A DNA stretch of 64,000 nt, taken from NCBI RefSeq assembly GCF_029891735.1, contig NZ_JANQDH010000050.1:1-64000 (forward strand), written 5' to 3'. Both the position numbers and the translations under genes were made by a program. Below are positions 27,918-29,550 of this stretch, one piece after another; position 1 is the stretch's first letter, and each line of letters begins with the position of its first letter. The stretch is from Chrysosporum bergii ANA360D. GTDB lineage: Bacteria > Cyanobacteriota > Cyanobacteriia > Cyanobacteriales > Nostocaceae. The notes below the pieces were generated by a model, which was given only the letters and a program-made list of their open reading frames with translations, was not told the DNA's origin and ran no database searches.

Positions 27918-29045
27918 TTATGAGATTACGGCAATACAATCAATTTCTACTAAAACATCTTTTGGCAACCGAGAAACCTGGACGCAAGCACGGGCTGGGG
28001 CTGTTTCTTCGGGGAAGTATTTAGCATAAACTGCATTGACTGCGGCAAAATCATTCATATCAGCTAAAAATACTGTGGTTTTGACCACGTTGGCAAAACT
28101 GGCACCAGAGGCTGTGAGAATAGCTTGTAAATTAGCCATGACCTGCTCTGTTTGCTTTTTCACATCATCTGTGTAAACAATATCACCTATCCGAGGATCA
28201 ATGGCAATTTGTCCAGCTACAAATATCATCTGACCAGAAGCGGCGATCGCTTGATTATAAGGACCCACGGGAGCGGGTGCGTTATCAGTACGAATTACTT
28301 GACGAGTCATATATGTCACTTTTTCTAATAGTGTTTCTTCCTTGCCAACTTCCTCCTCAGAGGTTGTTGCTTGGTAAACTTCCCCATCGGGCATTATCGC
28401 ACCGGTGAGGTCAGCATTTTTAAAGGTAGCACCGTAAATATTTGCCCCGGTTAAATCTGCTCTTCTCAGATTTGCACCATCTAGATTTGCTTTCATTAAA
28501 TTTACATTTCGCAAATCCGCTTTATCTAAATTTATTCCTTGAAGAATGGCATTTCTAAAATTTACCCCATTGAGGTTAGCTGCTCCCAAATCAGCCTCAG
28601 CAAGATTCGTTCCAGAAAAATCTCTTCCAGTTAAATCAACTGCCCCAAACTTGGCTAGATGTAAGTTAGCATTTTTGAAGTAAAGACTACTTATAATTGC
28701 TTTGCTGAAATTAGCCTGAAACAAATTAGCTCCAATAAAGTTAGCCTGATTCAGCATCGCCTGACTTAAATCAGCACCACTCAAATCTGCTAAACTGAAA
28801 TTTGCAGACTGACTGTCTTGTACATTTGTTAAATTTGCCCCTCTCAACGATGCTCTAGTAAAGTTTGTCCCTGTTAGATACGCTTTGCTCAGGTTAACAT
28901 CATTTAGTTCAGCCCCTGTCAAGTCGGCATTTTCTAGGATTATTCCACTTAAATCAGCACCTTCAAGGTTTATTCCTCTTAAACTTGCCTTTTGAAATTT
29001 CCGAACACCCTGTGCATATTGTTTTAACAATTCCTCAGCATCCAT
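27918..29045 (-). CDS. Pentapeptide-repeat protein fused to RidA
   Basis: A 375-residue protein with two unrelated parts in one frame. Residues about 15-215 are A(D/N)LxX pentapeptide repeats ([18 protein letters not shown]), a right-handed quadrilateral beta-helix. After a 30-residue acidic linker, residues 246-375 are a complete RidA/YjgF domain, an enamine/imine deaminase. It starts [20 protein letters not shown] and keeps the catalytic Arg region [16 protein letters not shown]. No stop codon separates them. An internal ATG at 28310 could give free RidA, but its Shine-Dalgarno is poor. ATG 29045 was chosen because the frame above it overlaps the upstream Nudix gene. Confidence 0.85.
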
Positions 29046-29091
29046 AACCAAGCTCCCCAAAATACCACTTAACCCAGTATAATCGCCAAAA

Positions 29092-29550
29092 TTATCTCTT
29101 TTCTCCCGACTGAAAACCAAACCGGGGACGCAGGCCATAATGGCGATACCGCCAATAATCCTGCAAAATCTGGTCATGGTCAAAACATAAATTACTAGGT
29201 ACACGCCAAGGCTCAAAAATGCCTACATCCTTAGCATCATCACCGGCTATTGGTTCTCCGGTGGCAGTTGCTAAAAACACAATACTAATGGTATGCTGAC
29301 GGCGATCGCGGCTGGGGTCAGAATAAACTAAAAATTGTTCAATTAACTCTACGTGCAACCCTGTTTCTTCCTCAGCTTCCCGCCTGGCTGCTACTTCCAC
29401 AGGTTCACCATAATCTACAAACCCACCGGGTATAGCCCAACCCAAGGGTGAGTTATGTCGTTCAATTAAAACTATCGGTCGATGTGGGCGATCTACCAAC
29501 TCAATAATGATGTCAACCGTGGGTGCGGGATTTTGATAACTTATAGTCAT
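29092..29550 (-). CDS. Nudix hydrolase
   Basis: A 152-residue Nudix enzyme. The Nudix box is intact: [18 protein letters not shown] followed by EEETGLHVE. Flanking features [10 protein letters not shown] and [16 protein letters not shown] resemble ADP-ribose pyrophosphatase-type enzymes, so a nucleotide-sugar substrate is plausible; it cannot be fixed from sequence alone. ATG 29550. It is followed on the same strand, 46 bases later, by the pentapeptide-RidA gene, and is divergent from malQ by 49 bases. Confidence 0.88.

Follow-up and report, generated by a model that had tools for sequence, protein, structure and literature searches.

RidA is a widespread enzyme that normally stands alone, usually as a free protein some 130 residues long, and it forms trimers. 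The gene described here lies in a stretch of 64,000 nucleotides from the cyanobacterium Chrysosporum bergii ANA360D, which as a whole is referred to as the window. Its RidA domain resembles the RidA/YjgF hydrolases of the Rid family (TIGR00004) in that it is complete, scores above the cut-off of that model and carries the same six active-site residues as E. coli RidA, but it differs from them in being preceded in frame by a pentapeptide-repeat domain and a linker. The repeat domain, in turn, can be compared with HetL, which we take to be All3740 (PDB 3du1), and with related cytosolic pentapeptide-repeat proteins of Nostoc, as its alignment with NF047416, the HetL model, extends over the full model and it also aligns to the 3du1 structure. 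With 129 bits, however, its score is far under the equivalog cut-off of 260 bits, which rules out a HetL orthologue, and the cut-off of the Alr5209 family (NF052603) was missed as well (122.3 versus 125 bits). The bacterial genes with alternative N-terminus proteoforms that are treated in the accessible part of PMC11005335 share with our proposal for the present gene that one frame has two starts and that the C-terminal domain is also made alone. The difference is that the internal start considered here appears to be kept according to how many gene copies supply the short product.

The initial annotation of this locus, which was made from the nucleotide sequence, suggested that tethering a metabolite-damage enzyme to a β-helix scaffold would be new. 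This view stands insofar as no description of a pentapeptide-repeat–RidA fusion was found in a literature search that covered titles and the beginnings of abstracts, with most subscription journals outside its scope. It is weakened by the HetL paper PMC7476756, which states that, in Nostoc PCC 7120, five of the pentapeptide-repeat proteins carry additional domains and which lists these in a supplement; the fusion may be named there. In the accessible text of the review PMC8145042, nothing on the fusion stands at the places that match fusion, RidA or related terms, and in that of PMC4921024, RidA appears only in a reference.

The fused gene and its surroundings

The fused gene is located at positions 27918..29045 on the minus strand. 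Its translation has 375 residues with one terminal stop and no stop inside. In agreement with the initial annotation, translation, Pfam and the NCBIfam model TIGR00004 together showed one uninterrupted 375-codon frame with about 40 pentapeptide repeats and a complete RidA. The repeat domain comprises residues 1–221 (28383..29045, minus strand) and has an MPDG motif at its end. The Pentapeptide model PF00805 matched the protein with 157 bits in six stretches, and these matches, together with the predicted β-helix, place at least eight consecutive repeats of the A(D/N)LXX type in this domain. The repeat part was modelled by AlphaFold2 as a regular β-helix, where the pLDDT of ten-residue blocks was mostly 85–98 up to residue 200. 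The 24 residues between MPDG and the RidA methionine (residues 222–245; 28311..28382, minus strand) constitute a linker that is predicted to be disordered, the pLDDT being below 50 from residue 227. This linker had been described as acidic, which fits the window, where its net charge is −5, and fits the family less well, since the median charge of the corresponding stretch in 157 fused genes was only −2, with a range from −8 to +4.

The RidA domain itself spans residues 246–375 (27921..28310, minus strand). Ribonuc_L-PSP (PF01042) matched at residues 254–374 with 152 bits, and TIGR00004 at residues 249–373 with 166.3 bits against a cut-off of 106.25. When this domain was compared with what we take to be the E. 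coli RidA sequence and its active-site labels, all six residues (Y17, G31, N88, R105, C107 and E120 in E. coli numbering) were found to be present. The AlphaFold2 model of the RidA part was of low confidence and relied on an alignment of 16 sequences only. The first codon of the domain, at 28308..28310 on the minus strand, is the internal ATG that had been placed correctly at 28310 in the initial annotation; it encodes residue 246, is matched by an ATG in fused relatives with a single RidA and represents the proposed start of a free RidA. The nine codons on its 5′ side (28311..28337, minus strand) are A/T-rich, lack a Shine-Dalgarno sequence and show high synonymous-codon conservation in relatives. 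Upstream of the entire gene, a Shine-Dalgarno-like GGGGAG (29053..29058, minus strand), recognised from the sequence and from relatives, precedes the ATG at 29045 by 7 nt.

A gene for a NUDIX hydrolase (29092..29550, minus strand; Pfam PF00293) is located 46 nt upstream of the fused gene and is probably its operon partner. A same-strand upstream NUDIX match was also present in 91 of the 150 fused loci that had at least 1500 nt upstream of RidA, and within 1500 nt in 74 of those 91. Among unfused RidA genes, 55 of 84 had a NUDIX match upstream, 26 of these 55 at a distance of at most 310 nt. This adjacency of NUDIX and RidA in unfused loci means that the repeat domain sits between genes that are neighbours elsewhere. 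The fused gene was the only RidA-domain match in the window's genome at E values up to 0.001, and none of the plasmid records that were searched with the whole fused protein covered 80% of it.

Distribution of the fusion

The initial annotation had suggested a search for relatives with the same layout and a comparison of their junctions. A query consisting of the last repeat coil, the linker and RidA matched 209 of the 217 genomes searched in the window's family. Frame classes were assigned for the 150 matches listed, which represent 146 genomes, and the resulting figures are lower bounds: 63 further genomes had a RidA match outside the matches listed, and eight had no match at the limit applied. 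Among the matches listed, a frame of at least 340 codons ran through the junction in at least 93 of the 217 family genomes, while five genomes had a frame of 260–339 codons, 19 an interrupted frame (200–259 codons) and 29 a shorter one. In the class of 260–339 codons, repeats were seen in the sequences of four members, and most repeats were lost in the fifth (G143). When 388 genomes were searched across the order, intact fusions were read in 11 family codes (f1, f2, f3, f4, f5, f12, f15, f21, f22, f27 and f33). A sample of the phylum comprised 386 genomes, 152 of which matched at 1e-40. Outside the order, 49 genomes of the same class matched, and no fusion was seen among the matches listed for them, 44 when counted by eye, the longest frame having 249 codons. 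Lastly, 29 of 79 named loci carried an intact fusion, including Nostoc, Anabaena, Nodularia, Calothrix, Trichormus and one Microcoleus; these loci were the best 79 of 561 and are not an unbiased sample.

Chance is excluded, because the long frame recurs in 93 or more of the 217 family genomes and an intact fusion in 29 of the 79 named loci, and the recurrence of the open junction in many genomes rules out a sequencing error or a missing stop in this particular assembly. A recent fusion is ruled out by the intact fusions across 11 family codes of the order. For the same reason, and because the dN/dS of the repeat domain is as low as 0.29 (see below), the suggestion in the initial annotation that a stop codon between adjacent genes was lost recently could not be upheld. 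We conclude that this two-domain gene is real, that it is old and that it is widespread within one cyanobacterial order. A role confined to heterocysts is disfavoured, as an intact fusion is held by Microcoleus sp. FACHB-61 (L059), which belongs to a genus that, to our knowledge, has no heterocysts.

The proposed internal start codon and RidA copy number

The reading that we favour, and that the comparisons among genomes render probable, is that of an old conserved fusion gene that would make two products, tethered and free RidA. Genes were counted as intact fusions if the open frame ahead of RidA had at least 200 codons and the repeat score was at least 19, which yielded 157 genes in 152 genomes. 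All 152 genomes were covered in scoring for a second RidA, with E values up to 1e-32. Where the genome had one RidA only, all 138 intact fusions carried an ATG at the domain boundary, 136 of them exactly at position 0, one at −1 and one at −2. In genomes with several RidA genes, it was present in only 10 of 19 intact fusions and missing in the other nine (Fisher p 7e-10, counting genes). As kinship among genomes inflates this gene-level value, a comparison of units of genus and copy class is fairer; here, the ATG was present throughout in 37 of 37 single-copy units versus two of nine multi-copy units (Fisher p 7e-7).

The nine ATG-less fusions belong to G304, G385, G373, G279, G531, G038, G444 and G283, and to one of the two copies in G524. 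In every case, the partner RidA copy has an ATG, which in G038 lies one codon later. The division is complete in G283, where one copy has the repeats and no ATG and the other has the ATG and no repeats. Two copies are present and the ATG is nonetheless kept in G226 and in the genomes of genus g69. The loci L119, L121 and L149 of this genus (G132, G135 and G134) contain tandem fused duplicates, both of which are intact and have the internal ATG. In L283, L284 and L285 (G373, G304 and G385), the ATG-less fused gene adjoins a free RidA gene.

Several genes were left out of the set of 157. The five genes of the 260–339-codon class were among them, and each has the ATG. Four interrupted single-copy genes from the order (in G525, G501, G491 and G487) were also excluded; their ATG stands at 0 or −1. 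The broken-repeat copies in G448 and G503 lack the ATG, which their partner copies have. The same holds for a repeat-copy fragment in G300, where a stop interrupts the frame 59 codons ahead of RidA: the ATG is missing from the fragment and present in its partner. Finally, the copy of a Nodularia MAG (L056) lacks the ATG and is outside the genome-coded set. The ATG count also excludes the fusions of G422, G452, G522, G526, G289 and G350, which are known from match listings. Family genes in which the repeats are broken or lost provided an additional comparison. Of the 48 such genes (19 interrupted and 29 with short frames), 47 were read, G097 being the one left out, and all 47 had an ATG at the RidA start together with an intact RidA, as judged by length and two motifs. 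Some of these genes are without any linker, and the ATG is therefore at the same position in them without provably being the same codon. On a RidA gene tree, the presence of the methionine changed 6 times, and there were 2 well-supported independent pairs (6 on the best tree). Copy number differed in the same way in 1.6 of these pairs on average, in the opposite way in 0.0 and not at all in 0.4, which is too few for significance. This tree was poorly resolved, and its minimum of 51 changes of the fused state is probably inflated.

An alternative would be that only the fusion protein is made, that RidA works in the tethered form and that the internal methionine is merely a conserved residue of the domain. 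We consider this unlikely. The N-terminal stretch that holds the methionine is indeed conserved, and in the single-copy fusions 50 columns of RidA were conserved to at least 98.5%. Yet, of these 50 columns, it was the one most often changed when a second RidA was present, namely in 9 of the 19 copies from multi-RidA genomes, compared with 7 for the next column. RidA is more widely relaxed in the ATG-less duplicates, which favours this alternative: on average, 15% of the conserved columns were changed in ATG-less copies versus 2% in duplicates that kept the ATG, and four of the nine ATG-less copies were altered at the equivalents of Y17, N88, R105 or E120. Since other RidA columns changed along with the methionine, relaxation after duplication explains part of the pattern. 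It does not account for the absence of any ATG loss among the 138 single-copy fusions, and the ATG in the 47 genes with broken or lost repeats likewise speaks against the fusion protein alone. Diverged fused duplicates with 55–56% identity, several changed active-site residues and intact repeats were observed in L322 (G038) and in the second L292 copy (G524).

The nucleotide context of the two starts bears on the same question. At the equivalents of the upstream start (29045), a Shine-Dalgarno match of at least 4 was present in 87% of 121 fused relatives. At the internal ATG, no Shine-Dalgarno sequence was apparent, a match of at least 4 being found in 12% of 138 fusions as compared with 20% at random codons, and this would suit a gene from which only the fusion is translated. 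Unfused RidA genes likewise mostly lack a Shine-Dalgarno sequence, with such a match in 12% of 58. From this we infer that the internal ATG may be an initiation site of the Shine-Dalgarno-independent kind. In addition, the synonymous codons before the ATG appear to be constrained, which speaks against a methionine that is kept only as a residue of the domain. When 237 nine-codon windows were ranked in 75 fused genes sharing one linker length, the excess of synonymous identity was highest in the window that immediately precedes the ATG (p 0.0008 by column permutation). This window size was picked, however, after the outcome of a first analysis was known, in which six-codon windows had been ranked in 73 genes and the window at −33 came first and that at −9 second. 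A second stretch of high synonymous conservation was observed at codons −39 to −32, inside the last repeat coils of the 75 fused relatives; it was nearly as high at nine codons, which means that the ATG-proximal signal is not unique. Immediately upstream of the ATG, codon usage was also skewed towards A/T. Across 138 fusions, ATA made up 83% of the isoleucine codons there versus 21% elsewhere, TTA 91% versus 32% of the leucine codons and AAA 99% versus 78% of the lysine codons.

A simple scan of 75 sequences for an internal promoter showed no common −35/−10 pair. In 48 of the 75, a TANNNT occurs at −8, too near the ATG to be its promoter. Compared with synonymous shuffles, the RNA centred on the ATG had less structure in 96% of 24 sampled sequences, with a mean z of 0.75; this was given little weight, because, although none of the 17 places examined had a higher z, one of the others reached −0.95. 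Together, the copy-number pattern, the codon constraint and the 47 of 47 genes with broken or lost repeats provide good comparative evidence, which suggests that the internal ATG also yields a free RidA, as the initial annotation had thought possible.

Constraint on the repeat domain and possible roles of the two proposed products

Since interruption or loss of the repeat domain is frequent within genera, the domain is dispensable. Indeed, nine of the 21 family genera that hold the long junction frame also have members with interrupted or short frames, and genus g28 is a tenth candidate on account of a member whose match fell outside the matches listed. The window's own genus is among these. 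In its sister species G001 (L245), comparison with positions 28280–29200 of the window showed that the NUDIX end is kept, that the repeats are reduced to a stub and the repeat start codon is gone, and that the bases just 5′ of the RidA ATG are retained. Such losses would be expected if an upstream repeat gene had lost its stop long ago and the repeats were tolerated ballast that is repeatedly shed, and the MPDG end of the window's repeat domain resembles the MPNG and MPDG ends of separate repeat genes in L081 and L083. We nevertheless regard a neutral fusion of this kind as quite improbable, given its presence in 11 family codes. Furthermore, the median dN/dS was 0.29 for the repeat domain and 0.076 for RidA in 198 pairs of equal length, and 0.24 for the linker in 196 pairs. 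The repeat domain is under purifying selection. Its length also varies in whole coils: a strict start pattern, which in 6 cases matched at a non-ATG codon, allowed repeat lengths to be measured in 96 of the 157 fused genes, and in 89 of the 96 the length was 15–18 modulo 20, corresponding to steps of one 20-residue coil. The commonest lengths were 216, 236, 256, 276 and 296 residues. The strong Shine-Dalgarno sequence at the repeat start and the retention of fusions alongside a separate RidA are likewise at odds with neutrality. A protease that cuts the linker and frees RidA from the fusion would be compatible with the predicted disorder of the linker and its charge in the window, but would need neither the boundary ATG nor its codon context, and is highly improbable.

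Returning to a gene with two products, initiation at the strong start at 29045 would place RidA at the end of a pentapeptide-repeat β-helix via a flexible linker, and initiation at the internal ATG at 28310 would give an ordinary free RidA. Because RidA is trimeric, up to three rods per enzyme could be carried. The free enzyme would serve general enamine/imine clearance, and the rod-bearing form would be held near some partner or some source of reactive intermediates. We infer that the cell makes both proteins, which would mix in trimers, and that the rod binds something; that the rod scaffolds RidA is our best guess.

From the genomic patterns, we lean somewhat towards a broader scheme in which the fate of the internal start codon, retention or loss, would depend on the supply of the short product by another copy. 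A single frame would then provide a free and a rod-borne enzyme, with rods varying in length by whole coils. After duplication the roles could split, into a rod without the start and a start without the rod, and some rod-bearing RidA proteins with altered catalytic residues may turn to structural or sensing functions. The genomes with one and with two copies represent a natural contrast that makes the internal-start hypothesis testable. A conserved fusion partner of RidA in part of one order is a handle on whether metabolite-damage control is localised, and the fusion also offers a handle on the function of pentapeptide-repeat rods in cyanobacteria.

Outside the fused group, a separate short pentapeptide-repeat gene was observed just upstream of RidA in L083 (3770-4582) and L081 (293-1252). 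These genes end in MPDG (L083) or MPNG (L081) plus a few residues, and the gap to RidA amounts to a few bases in L083 and some tens in L081. When read by eye, the N-termini of both appeared signal-peptide-like. In L289 (1-130; G300), the repeat copy runs into unrelated sequence near the contig end, possibly an insertion. Lastly, L026, L259 and L260, which are without the repeat domain, have a short repeat-like sequence, e.g. RTAKAQRAQRKEK, before the RidA start.
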